The translations under genes were made by a program, and so were the position numbers. Under the pieces are notes generated by a model. It had not been told where the DNA came from, ran no database searches, and saw only the letters and a program-made list of their open reading frames with translations. A stretch of DNA of 33,671 nucleotides from Deltaproteobacteria bacterium (lineage in GTDB: Bacteria; Desulfobacterota; Syntrophia; Syntrophales; UBA2210): contig JAPLJO010000110.1 in assembly GCA_026388515.1 (NCBI GenBank), positions 1 through 33,671 of the forward strand. The letters run 5' to 3'. Shown here in pieces: positions 22,127 through 30,047 of the stretch (within the stretch, counting starts at the first letter, position 1; each line of letters opens with the position of its first letter).

Positions 22127-24091
22127 CTATTCTTCGACATCCCATCTATCAAAGAGAATCCTTTCCCGTTTGCCGCGGGATGACAATGTCAGTTCATTGA
22201 TGAAACGTGACGGCGCCACCATTTTGTGCGTAGTGCTTTTCCATGAATAGTCTGTCAAGGGATGGCAGAAGTACAAGCGGTCTTTTGCCCTGGTAGTCGC
22301 CACATAAAAGAGACGACGCTCCTCATCCTCGCCCCCCCTTTCCTTTAATGCCCGCGCAAGGGGTATTTTCCCCTCGGAACACCCGATGAGAAATACCACC
22401 GACCATTCGAGTCCCTTTGCCTGATGAATTGAACTGAGGATCACTGCATGTTTGACCTCGCCATTGAGACGTGTATCGTGCTCCTCACTGATCGTGGTCA
22501 GGAGGGCCAGTTCGCCGAGAAAATCAGTGAGCGTCTCAAATCGCGTCGAAAAACCGGCAAGCTGGATCAGGTCGTCTTTTCTCGAAGACGCATCCTCGTA
22601 GTGCCGTTCAAGATATCCGCCGTAGTATCTTTCGAGAATTGATCTTATAACAGTGTCAGGCCGTCGCCCGGCCGCATCGCCTCCCAGGTATGAAAGTGTT
22701 TCAACTACGCGTGTCAATCCGGCCCTGGCGTGTGGTCTTGCCGTACCGATAAAATCTGGGTTTAATGCCGCTTTGAGCGGCTCCTTTTCTGTGCGGAGCT
22801 TTTCCCAGAGACGTCCTGCCGTCCTGGAACCTATTTTTTCACAGAGAAGAAAGAGCCTCAACCACGCTGTTTCATCAAAAGGATTTTCAATAACTTTTAT
22901 GAATGCCGTGACGTCTTTTACGTGAGCCTGTTCAAAGAAGCGGATACCCGAACGTAATTGAAAAGGAATACGCCTGCGAACGAGCTCCATCTGCAGTTCC
23001 AGCGACTGGTAATGCGCCCTGTAGAGTACGGCCATCTCATCGAGCGGCACTCCTTTGTCCGCCAGTTCTATCATGTGCTGTGAGACAAAATCGGCCTGCT
23101 GCATGGCATCCCTCACCGGCACGAAGACCGGCCTCAGCCCCCCCATTCTGACGGCGCGAAGTTCCTTCTGAAACTGTGTGGTGTTCATCATGATGCTTCT
23201 ATTAGCAAAATCGAGTATTTCCGGTGTGCTCCGGTAGTTTATTTCAAGCTTAAAAATCTTTGCATCGGGATATCGCTGCGGAAAACGCATCATGTTTGTA
23301 ATCTCAGCACCACGGAATGAGTAAATGCTTTGTGAATCGTCGCCGACTACCATAATATTGCGGTTCCTTGATGCGAGAAGGTCGAGTATTTTCGCCTGGA
23401 TGATATTGGTATCCTGATATTCGTCGACACAGACGTGCAGGAAATTGTCGGCGTACATTTCGAGGATATCCTGCTCCATTTCAAGGAGTTCGTACCACCT
23501 GACGAGCAGGTCATCGAAATCCATAAGGTTCATTTCCTTTTTACGGATTCCGTAGCGCACCGCGACTTTGATCATGTCGCTTACCACATTCTGAAACGAA
23601 GGATACCGTGAGGCAACGATGTCTTCTATGGATCTTCCAGTATTGACGGAAAGACTTATGATATCCGCGGCTATTGACGCCGCCGGGAATGAATCCTTTC
23701 CCGCGTACCGCATGTCTGCAATGCAGGAATTCATGACGTTGCGTGCGTCGGCTTCATCGAGTATTGTATAATTACTTTCATATCCAACCAGACGGGCATG
23801 TTTTCACAAGATACGGTTACCGATGCGATGAAAAGTTCCACTCCAGAGACGTTCCACACCAACGCTCACAAGGTTTTCTACGCGTGCAAGCATGGAACGC
23901 GCGGCTTTATTGGTAAATGTAACAAGCAGCAATCTGGCGGGCGGTATTCCCTGATCTATCAACCGCGCGACCCGGTAGGTGAGCGTGCGGGTTTTACCGC
24001 TTCCCGCACCGGCGATGACGAGGATGGGACCTCCGTCGGTCATTACGATCGCCCGCTGTTCTGAATTCAGGTCCTTTTCGTAATTGATCAT
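22127..24091 (-). pseudogene. UvrD/PcrA-type helicase interrupted by one in-frame TGA
   Basis: SF1A 3-prime to 5-prime DNA helicase. Every motif is present in one frame: Q motif LNSEQRAIV, Walker A AGAGSGKT, motif Ia [70 protein letters not shown] at 23806-23804 (codon 96 from ATG 24091) splits it; the frame reads RIGNRIL-stop-KHARLVGY and stays open for about 558 more codons. Relatives have Arg at that position, so CGA to TGA is the simplest change. Other genes here end normally in TGA, which argues against a recoded genetic code. An ATG at 23734 could restart but would lack the ATP-binding motif. Recent pseudogene, sequencing error and readthrough remain open. Confidence 0.88.
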
Positions 24092-24169
24092 TGAATTTAT
24101 CGTAATTAAGTCAGGGTTGGTATCAGAACGCAAATCATTACGGATTCAAGGGGCGTACATCTGAGATAT

Positions 24170-25059: not shown

Positions 25060-25135
25060 AAATCGGGCCTGGCATATAAACGCCTGATGCACAATCCCCG
25101 ATCGATACATTGAAGACGAATGGAGGGTGAATACA

Positions 25136-26653
25136 TTGTCCGGCATCTTCGATTACGTGTCAGGCGCGGCTTCCCGTGTGAGGGAGTGGTTACGATCAGA
25201 GTTGGCACGGTCGAAATTCTTTCGTAAAATCCCCCTCAGACATATTGAGGTAATCGTTGCGCTTATCGGCGGTATCAACACGTATCTCATCCTGGCATAC
25301 CGTGAGGAAATTGTCTCATTCCTGGAACATTCATTCCTGGTCCTCATGGAAAAGGTATGCATCATCGCCGGTATCGCCGGTATCCTCGTGTATACAAATT
25401 TTTTCCAAGAAATACTTGATAAAAAATTCACCACCCGGAACCGGCTGCTTGCTATCATCACTTTCGGAAGTATTTCAATATTCGGAACCTACTCCGGCCT
25501 TGAACTATACGGTGCTATCGTCAATGTAAGAGATCTCGCCCCGATGGTTGCCGGGCTCACGGGCGGTCCCATAATCGGGACGTGCGCCGGCTTGATCGGC
25601 GCTGTTCACCGGTATTCCCTGGGCGGGTCAACTGCGTTCCCCTGTTCACTTGCCACCGTGCTTGCAGGATTTTTCGGCGGCATGGTGTATGTCGTCTGCG
25701 GCCGCCGTTTTATAGGCGCCGCGGGCGCCGCGGCAGTGGCTGTCATCATGGAAATAACACACATGACCCTGGCACTGCTTCTTACCAGTCCATATGAGTA
25801 TGCCGTTATCATTGTAAGATCCGTCGCGGTCCCCGTCACCCTCTCGAATGCCTTCGGGATGCTTATTTTTGCGCTGATAATTTCGAATTACATAAAAAAA
25901 CGCGAAAAAGCGAAAACCATATTTGAAGATACCGACGATGCAGAGATGCACGATTATCAGATGCAGGCCGCCAGAAAAATTCAGCACACGTTTCTCTCTG
26001 ATGATGTACCTTCCATTGACGGCCTTGATATCGCGGCACTCAAGATACCCGGGAATACCGGCATGGTGGATTTTTATGACTTCATGGCCGTTTCCGTGGA
26101 CAGGCTCGCGATGACCGTTGTGGACATCCCTGGAAACACCTTCAAGGGTTCGGTTGAAATGGCAATACTTCACACCATTGTACGAAGTAAGGCCGCGATA
26201 AATCAGGACGCTGAAAGCGTTGTACAATATTTAAACAGGCGCTTTATGAATGATGAACATGCCAATCATATAAGGCTTTTCTACGGAATCATGGATACAA
26301 AAAAAAGAACATTCATGTATATGAATGCCGGTCTTGCTCCTCCGGTGTTATGCGGAAACGGGAAAACGTCAAAACTCAGGATGGATGCAGTCCTTGGCTC
26401 TCTCGAAGTGAAGAACATCAGGAATAACGAAATGACCCTGAATAAGGGTGATGTACTCTTTATTCATACAAACGGGATGGAACGTGACGGTTCTGCGCAG
26501 GTATGGGACAGGAAAGTGACGTCATTGATACGCGAACATGAAACGGAATCCGCTGAGAGCATTCTATCAAGAATAAGAAATGCCCTTCCCTCCCTCGGGC
26601 AGAGCGATGCCGGATTTGATGATATGGTACTGGTGGTAGTGAAAGTATTGTAG
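25136..26653 (+). CDS. 5TM-LYT membrane sensor fused to SpoIIE/PP2C phosphatase domain
   Basis: Predicted membrane receptor with a cytoplasmic serine phosphatase-like output, probably a partner-switching regulator. The N-terminal half has about six hydrophobic helices with the 5TMR-LYT pattern known from LytS (VNVRDLAPMVAGLTGGPI, GLIGAVHRYSLGGSTA). A linker (about 255-290) leads to a SpoIIE-type domain: metal-site elements DFYDF (about 312), VDIPG and the final DDMVLVVV are present, but the usual TDG is TNG (about 446), so one metal-binding Asp is Asn, and the GxGKG loop reads PGNTF. TTG 25136 is preferred because GGAGG sits 9 bases before it; GTG 25127 overlaps that site. No anti-sigma or STAS partner is adjacent. 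Activity may be reduced or lost. Confidence 0.78.
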   Translation: MSGIFDYVSGAASRVREWLRSELARSKFFRKIPLRHIEVIVALIGGINTYLILAYREEIVSFLEHSFLVLMEKVCIIAGIAGILVYTNFFQEILDKKFTTRNRLLAIITFGSISIFGTYSGLELYGAIVNVRDLAPMVAGLTGGPIIGTCAGLIGAVHRYSLGGSTAFPCSLATVLAGFFGGMVYVVCGRRFIGAAGAAAVAVIMEITHMTLALLLTSPYEYAVIIVRSVAVPVTLSNAFGMLIFALIISNYIKKREKAKTIFEDTDDAEMHDYQMQAARKIQHTFLSDDVPSIDGLDIAALKIPGNTGMVDFYDFMAVSVDRLAMTVVDIPGNTFKGSVEMAILHTIVRSKAAINQDAESVVQYLNRRFMNDEHANHIRLFYGIMDTKKRTFMYMNAGLAPPVLCGNGKTSKLRMDAVLGSLEVKNIRNNEMTLNKGDVLFIHTNGMERDGSAQVWDRKVTSLIREHETESAESILSRIRNALPSLGQSDAGFDDMVLVVVKVL

Positions 26654-26718
26654 GGTCATGTATATAACATATTCCCGCGAATAATTTATTTGACTTTCCA
26701 TGAATGAACGAAGGAACT

Positions 26719-26982
26719 ATGAAAAAGCAATCAAGAACAGACTGGGCAAAGATTAAGGCTCAAAAAGACAGGGAGATAAATTTTTCTGATATTACCGAAC
26801 TTGGTGACGATTTCTTTAAAGAAGCTGAATTATGGCCAGGGACAAAGAAACAGATTACTATCCGACTTGATCCTGACGTTTTAGATTTCTTCAGGAAAAA
26901 AGGTCGAGGCTATCAAAGTAATATTAATGCCGTTCTTCGCCATTACATGGAAGTGAATCGGCGTCGATTGAAGAACGTATGA
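26719..26982 (+). CDS. brnA: BrnA-type antitoxin, without an adjacent BrnT toxin
   Basis: Small DNA-binding antitoxin (about 87 residues) of the BrnT/BrnA type II system. The family pattern is clear: TDWAKIKAQKDREINFSDI, ELGDDFFKEAELWPG, then the ribbon-helix-helix region KKQITIRLDPDVLDFFRKKGRGYQSNINAVLRHYM split by short gaps. The toxin gene normally lies directly upstream and overlaps or abuts brnA, but only about 50 non-coding bases separate this gene from the SpoIIE fusion, and none follows downstream. Codons are visibly more A-rich than the neighbours', consistent with transfer. ATG 26719 (after AAGGA) or ATG 26704 may be the start. Solitary BrnA-like proteins exist and may only be transcriptional regulators. 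Confidence 0.85.
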   Translation: MKKQSRTDWAKIKAQKDREINFSDITELGDDFFKEAELWPGTKKQITIRLDPDVLDFFRKKGRGYQSNINAVLRHYMEVNRRRLKNV

Positions 26983-27357: not shown

Positions 27358-27376
27358 GCAGGGAGTGATGCGCCTC

Positions 27377-28699
27377 ATGTTGGAAGCCGATCTTATACTC
27401 ACGGGCGGAACGATTCTTACCCTCGATGAAAAGGATTCACGGATTTACGGGGGTGCGCTGGCGGTGGGCGGTGATACCATTGTCGCCGTGGGTCCCGGTA
27501 AAGAGATATGCCGGCGCTTCACTGCAAAGAAGGTCATCGACACCACAAACTTTCTCGTCATGCCCGGTCTTGTGAACTGCCATACCCATGCCGCCATGAC
27601 CTGCTTCAGGGGGCTTGCCGACGATCGGGAACTCATGGACTGGCTCAACAATTTCATATTTCCCGCCGAAGCAAGAAACGCCAATCCCGACCTTGCGTAC
27701 TGGGGCAGCCTGCTGGCCTGCGCCGAAATGATACGCTCCGGAACTACCACCTTCTCCGACATGTATATTTTTGAGAATGAAACCGCCCAGGCGGCGCGAC
27801 AGGCAAAGATGCGCTGTCTCATTGGCGAAGTGCTCTTTGATTTTCCTTCGCCGAATATCAAGAGTCCGGAAGAGGGAATTGCATACACCAGGAGACTGAT
27901 CGAGAAATGGGCTTCCGACCCGCTCATCAACATCATGGTCGAACCTCACTCTCTCTATACCTGCTCATCGGAACTGTTGCGGCGGTCACATGAGCTTGCC
28001 CTCGAATACGGCGTTCCACTGGCAACACATCTACTTGAAAATCAGGGAGAACTGGAACAACTGCGGAACAAGTTTGGCAAAAGGGCAACAGAATATCTCC
28101 AGGACCTCGGGCTTCTTACGGAGCGCTTCGTTGCATTTCACTGCGTTTATATGGACGAAGATGATATCCGCATCTTCGCGGACCACGGCTGTAAGGTGGT
28201 GCATAACCCGGAGAGCAACATGAAGCTCGCCTCCGGTGTCGCACCTATTACCAGCATGCTGAGAAGCGGTATCACCGTCGGGCTCGGCACGGACGGTTGC
28301 GCAAGCAATAACAACCTCGACATGATGCAGGAAATGGATTCGGCGGCAAAGCTCGAAAAGGCCGTCAGGTTCAACCCGAGAGCGATGTCGGCGCGCACGG
28401 TACTGCGCATGGCCACCTGCAACGGCGCGCGTGTTCTCGGGATGGAAGACCGCATCGGCATCCTGAAGGAGGGCATGAAGGCTGATATCATTGTCATAGA
28501 CCTCGACCGGCCCCACCTCACCCCCGTCTATGACGAATACTCCACAATCGTTTACGCCGCAAAGGGTTCCGATGTGACAACCGTCATCATCAACGGCACC
28601 ATAGTCATGGAGGATGGAAGGCTTCTGACCATCAACGAAGATGAGTCGATGGAAGAAGTCAACAGGATCGCCCTTAAGGTTAAGGAGAGCATGGGGTGA
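27377..28699 (+). CDS. mtaD: 5-methylthioadenosine/S-adenosylhomocysteine deaminase-like amidohydrolase, copy 1
   Basis: TIM-barrel metal-dependent deaminase converting SAH or MTA to the inosyl derivative, part of recycling adenosyl by-products of methylation. About 440 residues with all expected metal and catalytic residues: HTH in NCHTHAAM, EPHSLYTC, HLLEN, FHC, and GTDGCASNNNLDM carrying the metal Asp; small beta domains lie at both ends. The start is ATG 27377 (the family's EADLILTGGTIL follows), with AGGGAG 11 bases upstream; in-frame GTG 27365 and ATG 27368 are too close to that site. A second paralogue follows after 7 bases. The related amidohydrolases TrzA and AtzB share the fold, so substrate is inferred. 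Confidence 0.88.
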   Translation: MLEADLILTGGTILTLDEKDSRIYGGALAVGGDTIVAVGPGKEICRRFTAKKVIDTTNFLVMPGLVNCHTHAAMTCFRGLADDRELMDWLNNFIFPAEARNANPDLAYWGSLLACAEMIRSGTTTFSDMYIFENETAQAARQAKMRCLIGEVLFDFPSPNIKSPEEGIAYTRRLIEKWASDPLINIMVEPHSLYTCSSELLRRSHELALEYGVPLATHLLENQGELEQLRNKFGKRATEYLQDLGLLTERFVAFHCVYMDEDDIRIFADHGCKVVHNPESNMKLASGVAPITSMLRSGITVGLGTDGCASNNNLDMMQEMDSAAKLEKAVRFNPRAMSARTVLRMATCNGARVLGMEDRIGILKEGMKADIIVIDLDRPHLTPVYDEYSTIVYAAKGSDVTTVIINGTIVMEDGRLLTINEDESMEEVNRIALKVKESMG

Positions 28700-28706
28700 T
28701 GAAAGC

Positions 28707-30047
28707 ATGACCGCAGAACTTGATATACTCATTTCCGGTGGAACGCTGCTTACCATGTCCGACGCAATGGAGAAGGTGAGAAACGCGGAAATCGGCATCA
28801 AAGACGGGAACATTCTCTTTGTACGTCCTATGGGCGGCGGTCACCCCGTGACAACAGCAAAGGAAATCATTAATGCGTCGGAATGTCTTATCCTGCCAGG
28901 CCTCATAAATACCCATACCCACCTCCCTATGGTCTGTTTCAGGGGTCTCGCGGATGATCTCCCTCTCAACGAGTGGCTTACAAATCATATTTTCCCGGCA
29001 GAGGCCCGCTACGTGAACCGGGACATGGTCTATTACGGATCCCTCCTCGGTATTGCGGAAATGCTGCTTTCCGGCACTACTTCCTTCTGTGACGGCTACT
29101 TTTTCGCAAGCAGCACGGCGCGGGCAGCAATGGAGGCCGGCATTCGAGGTATCGTCGGTCAGGGAATCATTGACTACCCGACAGCGGACAATCCCGATCC
29201 CTCAAAGCACCTCACCATCGCCACCGGTTTTGTGAATAAATGGAAGGGAGTGTCACCCCTCGTCACCCCCGCGCTTTTCTGTCACTCACCGTATACCTGT
29301 TCACCTGAAACACTGAAGAATATCAAGTGTATCACCAGTGAACACGATCTCCTCTATCTCATCCATGTTTCCGAAACACTCGATGAGGTAAAGGTGATTA
29401 AAGACCGCTATGGCCTGTCCCCGGTAGCGCATCTCGAAAAGCTCGGCGTTCTCGATAATCGAACCGTGGCCATTCACTGCGTGTGGGTGGACGACGAAGA
29501 AATCGATATCCTTGCCCGCCGCGGCGCCGGAATTTCCCATGCACCGGAAAGCAACATGAAACTCGCCACCGGTGTGGCCCCCGTTCCAAAAATGCGGAAA
29601 AGAGGAATTGCCATCGGCCTGGGCACCGATGGATGTGCGAGCAATAATGATCTTGACCTCATTCTTGAAATGGGGACTGCGGCACGTATTCACAAGGTGG
29701 ATACCATGGACCCCACGGTCATCAGTGCCGAGACGGCCCTCAAAATGGCAACAAAAGAAGGTGCACGCGTACTCGGACTTGACGACAGAATCGGTTCAAT
29801 TGAGCCCGGCAAGTGCGCCGATATCATCATTCTTGACATGAAAAAACCCCACCTCACTCCGGTGTACAATGAGTATTCCCATGTCGTCTATGCCGCCTCT
29901 GGCGCCGATGTAAAGACCACCATTGTGAACGGAAGGGTAATAATGCGCAACAGAAAGATTCTCTCGTTTGACATGCGTACTGCAATGGAAAAAGTTCGGG
30001 CGGTGGCGCAGAGAATCATCGAAGACCGGTCGCGCGGGATATACTGA
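28707..30047 (+). CDS. 5-methylthioadenosine/S-adenosylhomocysteine deaminase-like amidohydrolase, copy 2
   Basis: Full-length paralogue of the upstream gene, collinear throughout, with metal and catalytic residues kept: THTHLPM, CHSPYTC, IHVSET, IHCVW and GTDGCASNNDLDL. Differences cluster in the segment after the SGTTS/SGTTT strand (FCDGYFFASS against FSDMYIFENE) and in the helix after the HxxE motif, regions that help shape the substrate pocket, so the two may divide substrates (for example MTA, SAH, 5-deoxyadenosine). ATG 28707 begins the family start TAELDILISGGTLL; the gap to copy 1 is 7 bases, so they form an operon. It ends 28 bases before the converging hydrolase gene. Confidence 0.87.
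   Translation: MTAELDILISGGTLLTMSDAMEKVRNAEIGIKDGNILFVRPMGGGHPVTTAKEIINASECLILPGLINTHTHLPMVCFRGLADDLPLNEWLTNHIFPAEARYVNRDMVYYGSLLGIAEMLLSGTTSFCDGYFFASSTARAAMEAGIRGIVGQGIIDYPTADNPDPSKHLTIATGFVNKWKGVSPLVTPALFCHSPYTCSPETLKNIKCITSEHDLLYLIHVSETLDEVKVIKDRYGLSPVAHLEKLGVLDNRTVAIHCVWVDDEEIDILARRGAGISHAPESNMKLATGVAPVPKMRKRGIAIGLGTDGCASNNDLDLILEMGTAARIHKVDTMDPTVISAETALKMATKEGARVLGLDDRIGSIEPGKCADIIILDMKKPHLTPVYNEYSHVVYAASGADVKTTIVNGRVIMRNRKILSFDMRTAMEKVRAVAQRIIEDRSRGIY

Follow-up and report, generated by a model that had tools for sequence, protein, structure and literature searches.

What can a membrane receptor do when its sensor half keeps the conserved motifs and its phosphatase half is heavily changed? 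The question is posed by one gene in the window, by which is meant the whole 33,671-nucleotide stretch of contig JAPLJO010000110.1 (assembly GCA_026388515.1, a Deltaproteobacteria bacterium of the Syntrophales) that was analysed here. A first-pass annotation, made from the sequence alone, had described the product as a LytS-type sensor fused to a SpoIIE-like phosphatase in which TDG is changed to TNG, and Pfam bears this out: the 5TM-5TMR_LYT model (PF07694) matches residues 88-251 with 146.4 bits against a cut-off of 24.6, the SpoIIE model (PF07228) matches residues 322-504 with 78.7 bits against a cut-off of 25, and HTNG occupies residues 444-447. The open reading frame is intact. A GGAGG ribosome-binding site (25122-25126, read directly) lies nine bases ahead of its TTG start, and an in-frame GTG at 25127, nine bases upstream of the TTG, is an alternative start. 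No receiver domain was matched by Pfam up to an E value of 1, the N-terminal part being the LYT sensor instead. The NCBIfam model RssB_Pseudo was set aside as an identity for the protein, since the match reached 30.5 of 700 bits, far below the cut-off.

The pairing of the two domains had been called uncommon, a description that is only partly right. Fusions of 5TMR/LYT receptors to PPM (SpoIIE) phosphatases were already reported in 2024 (available portion of PMC11109136), and of 155 genomes of the order, 14 (with the window's genome counted in both of its copies) together carry 17 full-length LYT-SpoIIE loci, so that the pair is known and moderately common. In one further genome (G065) the gene is split into two parts, each at the end of a contig. 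A sample of 395 genomes from the phylum adds three with a single LYT-SpoIIE gene and a fourth with a tandem pair. Named genomes gave no match when scanned with the window protein alone; with an alignment as query, LYT-SpoIIE proteins of Bacillota, Actinomycetota and Desulfobulbus were among the best 80 of at least 333 related stretches. Three of these named proteins (L075, L111 and L117) run to about 700 amino acids with extra sequence. TNG is represented by a single sequence. A close ortholog was found neither in the 155 genomes of the order and class, where the best full-length relative is 35% identical, nor in the 395 genomes of the phylum, for which at most three candidates per genome were scored. 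The open-licence literature of PubMed Central, judged by titles and the beginnings of abstracts, yielded no LYT/LytS receptor with a pseudo-phosphatase, and RssB was the only bacterial PP2C pseudo-phosphatase met in that literature.

In the accessible part of the report on B. subtilis SpoIIE, the ligands of Mn1 are Asp628, Asp746 and Asp795, and Asp610, Asp628 and the carbonyl of Gly629 form a possible second manganese site (PMC3517971). An alignment that includes 5mqh, whose residue numbers were counted by hand, places Asp610, Asp628 and Asp746 at D312, D330 and N446 of the window protein. The full set of metal-binding aspartates is therefore not present: one is lost (N446) and three are kept (D312, D330 and the D495-D496 pair). 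Because three of the four remain, one metal may still bind, and the different metal dependence that the first-pass annotation had offered as an alternative is possible on the same ground. That a TDG might lie elsewhere in the chain can be set aside, as the whole 505-residue translation was read and contains no TDG or SDG at any other place. When the residue was tabulated, the N446 column proved to be the aspartate of TDG or SDG in all 30 other LYT-SpoIIE proteins gathered, and aspartate in all 136 other distinct PP2C domains (profile E values no higher than 1e-8 and coverage above 150 positions), leaving the window protein the only one with TNG among 137. The Gly609 column is glycine in 135 of the 136, the last having a gap, and is Val311 here; the histidine of GHNPP is present in 136 of 136 and is Leu400 here. 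The first-pass annotation had also noticed an altered glycine loop after VDI, which reads DIPGNT for DVSGKG, with G333 retained and the second glycine replaced by Thr335. Changes that it had not listed are Met310-Val311 for the Gly-Gly before the first aspartate, GLAPP for GHNPP, and different residues after the TDG position. Two weaker PP2C-like genes (L006 and L007) are found in the same genome. The residue of human PPM1A that we take to be equivalent to N446 is Asp239. PPM1A D239N has been used as a phosphatase-dead mutant (PMC7978383 and PMC7072254, in the parts available) and also binds its substrate more weakly, so the change at N446 could harm binding too. According to a review seen in excerpt (PMC13358185), mutation of any metal-coordinating residue is enough to abolish phosphatase activity.

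Table 1. Features of the LYT-SpoIIE gene, in window coordinates
Feature	Position	Strand	Basis and remarks
CDS, LYT sensor with degenerate SpoIIE/PP2C domain	25136..26653	+	505 aa, TTG start, stop included
Predicted N-terminal helix ahead of H0, residues 34-54	25235..25297	+	AlphaFold, low confidence, ten-residue means 56-68
Helix H0, residues 56-85	25301..25390	+	AlphaFold model
5TM-5TMR_LYT domain, residues 88-251	25397..25888	+	Pfam
NxR motif N130-V-R132, equivalent of BtsS Asn70-Arg72	25523..25531	+	Comparison with BtsS
Arg159, equivalent of BtsS Arg99	25610..25612	+	Matched via spacing R+11=C
Cys170, equivalent of BtsS Cys110; Ala173 in place of Ser113	25643..25645	+	Comparison with BtsS
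Helical linker, residues 252-286	25889..25993	+	AlphaFold model
SpoIIE/PP2C domain, residues 322-504	26099..26647	+	Pfam; structural matches begin near residue 281
M310-V311-D312 for Gly-Gly-Asp (SpoIIE Gly609-Asp610); Asp kept, Gly lost	26063..26071	+	Alignment
D330-I-P-G333-N-T335 for DVSGKG (SpoIIE Asp628 loop); retains Asp and the first Gly, not the second	26123..26140	+	Alignment
Leu400 for His of AGHNPP	26333..26335	+	Alignment
Asn446, codon aac, for TDG Asp (SpoIIE Asp746)	26471..26473	+	Alignment
D495-D496, retained DD pair (SpoIIE Asp795 region)	26618..26623	+	Alignment

The outstanding feature of the protein is an asymmetry, in that the sensor motifs are conserved and the phosphatase half is heavily changed. 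In an alignment of 31 LYT-SpoIIE proteins, where a column was counted as conserved when at least 90% of the 30 others agree, the window protein keeps 18 of 19 conserved columns in the sensor and 19 of 44 in the PP2C half, the aspartate at position 446 and 24 more being lost from the latter. Leave-one-out counts for the 30 others show that the worst of them lose three of 41-42 PP2C columns and none loses more; in the sensor they lose up to six of 15. The median identity of the window sensor to the others is 39.6%, within the 24.8-46.3% of the rest, and that of the PP2C half is 22.3%, the next lowest median being 38.2%. Judged by branch length the sensor is not slow, for its terminal branch in the LYT tree measures 0.84 and the median is 0.15. 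GC3 is ordinary in the sensor half (0.580) and falls in the PP2C half to 0.511, against 0.520-0.667 in 15 neighbour genes; the codon bias of that half is weak (0.032, near the low end of the neighbours' 0.027-0.114). Together with the uniqueness of N446 among 137 domains and the dead PPM1A mutant, the 25 lost columns back the first-pass proposal that the protein may be a pseudo-phosphatase, as far as sequence can do so.

The two halves may also differ in ancestry. The protein has the domain order of the published LYT-PPM receptors (PMC11109136, as excerpted), and in the sensor tree it grouped with 25 of the 30 LYT-SpoIIE sensors at modest support (85/87). Nearest by path are a Pelotomaculum protein and a paralog in the same genome, a canonical LYT-SpoIIE protein with the usual motifs encoded on contig C93 (L038); most of the remaining LYT proteins, the histidine kinase of this genome among them, lie elsewhere in the LYT tree. 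The PP2C half points elsewhere. Its best HMM match (124.9 bits) is a family of SpoIIE proteins from 14 loci of the same order, ahead of the 30 LYT-SpoIIE proteins (97.9 bits) and 19 other proteins of the order (92.7 bits), and BLAST likewise favours the 14-locus family. In a tree of 78 PP2C domains the window domain joined those 14 with support of 100/99, on an end branch of 5.53 that is so long as to make its placement hard. A spacing of 29 residues separates the IQ motif and the first aspartate in the window protein and in 14 of 14 members of this family; it was seen in none of the 30 LYT-SpoIIE proteins, which all have TDG or SDG, GGD and GHxxP, in none of 18 measurable others of the order, and in 16 of 73 other named proteins. 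The 14-locus family (for example L012, L016 and L189) differs from the window protein in having the usual active-site motifs and another sensor, read as Cache/HAMP-type from the sequences and not from Pfam; the neighbourhoods of seven of the 14 loci suggested no common partner. When the window PP2C domain was grouped with that of the C93 paralog, the log-likelihood was 11.7 lower, and the AU test (p 0.133) did not reject such an ordinary origin. It is likely, and not proven, that the protein is a chimera, a LYT-SpoIIE receptor with an output domain from another SpoIIE family. We rejected the idea that the gene is a recent duplicate of the one on C93: no sensor in the alignment of 31 is closer to its own than that of C93, at 50% identity, yet identity between the two PP2C domains is 22.6%.

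The PP2C fold is predicted to be intact. The AlphaFold model has a mean pLDDT of 86.2 (93.4 for the canonical Pelotomaculum relative, L050) and runs from the low-confidence N-terminal helix through H0 and the LYT helices to a long linker, and ends in a PP2C domain of alpha/beta type. By VIA-align, whose rows span almost only residues 265-505, residues 283-505 superpose on the RsbU domain of Rv1364c (3ke6) with Z 25.9 over 217 residues at an rmsd of 2.4, and similar stretches match SiaA (Z 24.5), P. aeruginosa RssB (3f79, Z 23.4), SpoIIE (5ucg, Z 21.8) and RsbX (Z 21.2). Lower matches are RssB with beryllofluoride (8t85, Z 16.4), which we take to be the E. coli protein, and TAB1 (2pop, Z 15.7). 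The PP2C part is less certain than that of L050: ten-residue means fall to 69 at the lowest and are 78 near N446, whereas residues 221-440 of the control never drop below 91. The model was built with relatives in the alignment and so leans toward their fold, and a shared fold by itself shows no function.

Concerning the signal, the first-pass annotation had offered either the cell wall or a small molecule. No support was found for the former. As to the latter, the sensor retains three of the four residues with which BtsS, a LytS-type receptor, contacts pyruvate (Arg72, Arg99, Cys110 and Ser113 in the part of PMC10653868 that was available). The equivalents, found by the NxR motif and spacing, are R132, R159, C170 and A173, so that the four-residue set is incomplete. 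Replacement of Ser113 in BtsS by alanine weakened pyruvate binding, according to the same excerpt of PMC10653868. Alanine stands in this place in 18 of the 30 other LYT-SpoIIE proteins, and all four contacts (R, R, C, S) are present in the own-genome paralog and in Pelotomaculum. With the Ser113 equivalent missing, a related carboxylate is a fair guess for the ligand, that is, a small carboxylate and possibly a 2-oxo acid. BtsS differs further in having a histidine kinase as output.

Beside several canonical LYT-SpoIIE relatives lie genes of the STAS and RsbW-like types or a gene for an NCS2 permease, and the first-pass annotation had suggested looking for STAS and anti-sigma partners. No STAS domain was found in the genome with the profiles PF01740 and PF13466 and an alignment of eight STAS neighbours of the relatives; as controls, 14 known genomes gave 10 positives with one profile and 7 with the other, and the search with the eight-row alignment was without a positive control. 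Since the assembly, though listed as 100% complete, is a draft in 175 contigs, the absence is strong and not certain. RsbW-like candidates are represented by seven HATPase_c_2 matches, of which the surroundings of four were read: L045 and L048 read as the ATPase parts of histidine kinases, L047 is a frame of 92 amino acids, and L043:847-1896 (G000:C147) encodes an RsbW-like kinase of CBS-CBS-HATPase_c_2 build, the genome having given no STAS match. The window gene lies near adk (read from the translation), a lone BrnA-like antitoxin gene, a tRNA and two TRZ/ATZ hydrolases, with no STAS or RsbW gene among these neighbours. No operon partner was seen: the BrnA-like gene comes next, then the tRNA on the other strand and the two amidohydrolases. 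Scanning for promoters and terminators returned about as many matches as expected by chance. The C93 paralog is flanked by an anaerobic ribonucleotide reductase-like gene (from reading) and a SIS-domain gene, and the missing STAS domain raises the question of which substrate this paralog dephosphorylates.

With a metal-holding residue lost, the receptor probably signals by binding protein rather than by removing phosphate. Four points in this are inferences: that the domain is inactive, which ligand the sensor takes, how the switch works and that the output serves in binding. The LYT sensor, S-component-like and in the membrane, would bind a small carboxylate, possibly a 2-oxo acid, and the helical linker would relay this binding to a PP2C domain that has ceased to act as a phosphatase. 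As the PP2C fold seems to be kept, the ligand state would most likely open or close a protein-binding surface on this domain, and the receptor would thereby capture or release a partner protein, as RssB does. A precedent is given by RssB, in which, according to the portions available, a non-catalytic PP2C domain serves as a protein-binding adapter under the control of the same switch helices as in active PP2Cs (PMC5468089, PMC12143880, PMC7226468); PMC5468089 argues that pseudo-enzymes keep the regulatory switch while catalysis goes. RssB, the sigma-S adapter for ClpXP in E. coli, resembles the window protein in having a PP2C fold without the full active site and a helix-linked input domain; it differs in its REC input, in place of LYT, and has lost more of the ligands. 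The animal pseudo-phosphatases TAB1 and PHLPP also lack metal ligands and keep the PP2C fold, but have no LYT sensor. By analogy with RssB, we put the chances about even that the protein is a ligand receptor with a non-catalytic, protein-binding PP2C output and a putative partner.

The paralog permits a different function, in which the window protein forms mixed dimers with it through the LYT half and tunes its phosphatase for a slightly different ligand. The 50% identity of the LYT halves, the usual motifs of the paralog, its four BtsS contacts against three, and the dependence of RsbU activity on PP2C dimerisation all agree with this, and helix H0 has been proposed to dimerise 5TMR receptors (PMC11109136, in part). 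Pairing between PP2C domains that are 22.6% identical and may belong to different families is doubtful, however, and the two genes lie on different contigs; we regard mixed dimers as unlikely. Still less probable is an altered phosphatase that works, with Asn446 helping to hold the metal or with the second-site metal sufficing for slow or specialised catalysis. The retention of D312, D330 and D495-D496 does leave a site of the Mn2 type (Asp610, Asp628 and the Gly629 carbonyl) largely in place, but Val311, Thr335 and Leu400 are changed in the same active site, TNG occurs in none of the 136 relatives, and the corresponding PPM1A mutant is dead (PMC7978383, PMC7072254, in part).

Equally improbable in our estimate is a gene in decay, selection on the output domain having lapsed and the receptor drifting. 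Only a single copy is known, the branches of both halves are long, and the GC3 and codon bias of the PP2C half are low. Decay is nevertheless disfavoured by a frame open over 505 codons and by the kept sensor motifs, and the ordinary identity and GC3 of the sensor and the three retained aspartates likewise speak against it. To return to the non-catalytic receptor, the fuller proposition is more tentative, and we hold it to be rather doubtful as a whole: a small-molecule sensor would have been joined to the phosphatase domain of another family, which now serves as a non-catalytic, ligand-controlled binding module beside an active paralog and outside STAS partner switching. If true, receptor and active paralog in a cell without a STAS protein would mean that LYT-PP2C receptors signal outside such switching. 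That a pseudo-enzyme may keep its regulatory switch without catalysis is directly testable here, because the paralog with the usual motifs provides a built-in control.

Other observations concern the window itself. The BrnA-like antitoxin gene (26704-26982, +) begins 50 bases after the LYT gene, has no adjoining frame read as BrnT, and has a GC content of 0.384 where 15 neighbours average 0.508. The two TRZ/ATZ-family amidohydrolase genes overlap (27365-30047, +); their best models include N-ethylammeline chlorohydrolase and 5'-deoxyadenosine deaminase, all below cut-off. On the other strand (22127-24133, -) a UvrD-type helicase is split: the UvrD-helicase profile is matched in part by frame 22127-23734 and in part by frame 23804-24133, which is either a broken gene or an assembly error.

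Among the canonical relatives of the same order, LYT-SpoIIE adjoins an NCS2 (xanthine/uracil-type) permease at L039, L040, L041, L160, L161, L162, L163, L165, L166 and L167, the permease being identified by Pfam at three loci and by alignment or reading at the rest. A STAS gene lies between the two in five loci. In each of the eight aligned permeases some 130 C-terminal residues are weakly like an RsbW-type ATPase and without its nucleotide motifs (HATPase_c_2 by Pfam in two of the eight, best E 0.0076; hhalign E 0.0024, probability 12%, over 126 columns). Partner-switch control of a purine transporter is possible. Tandem LYT-SpoIIE pairs with RsbW-like and STAS genes nearby occur at L164:1576-4297 (G117:C492) and, in Desulfobulbus, at L051:2876-5722 (the same proteins in L202). 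The first copy in G117 is changed in the opposite sense to the window protein: its sensor residues are lost (SSG-AV at the six positions) and its phosphatase motifs remain.
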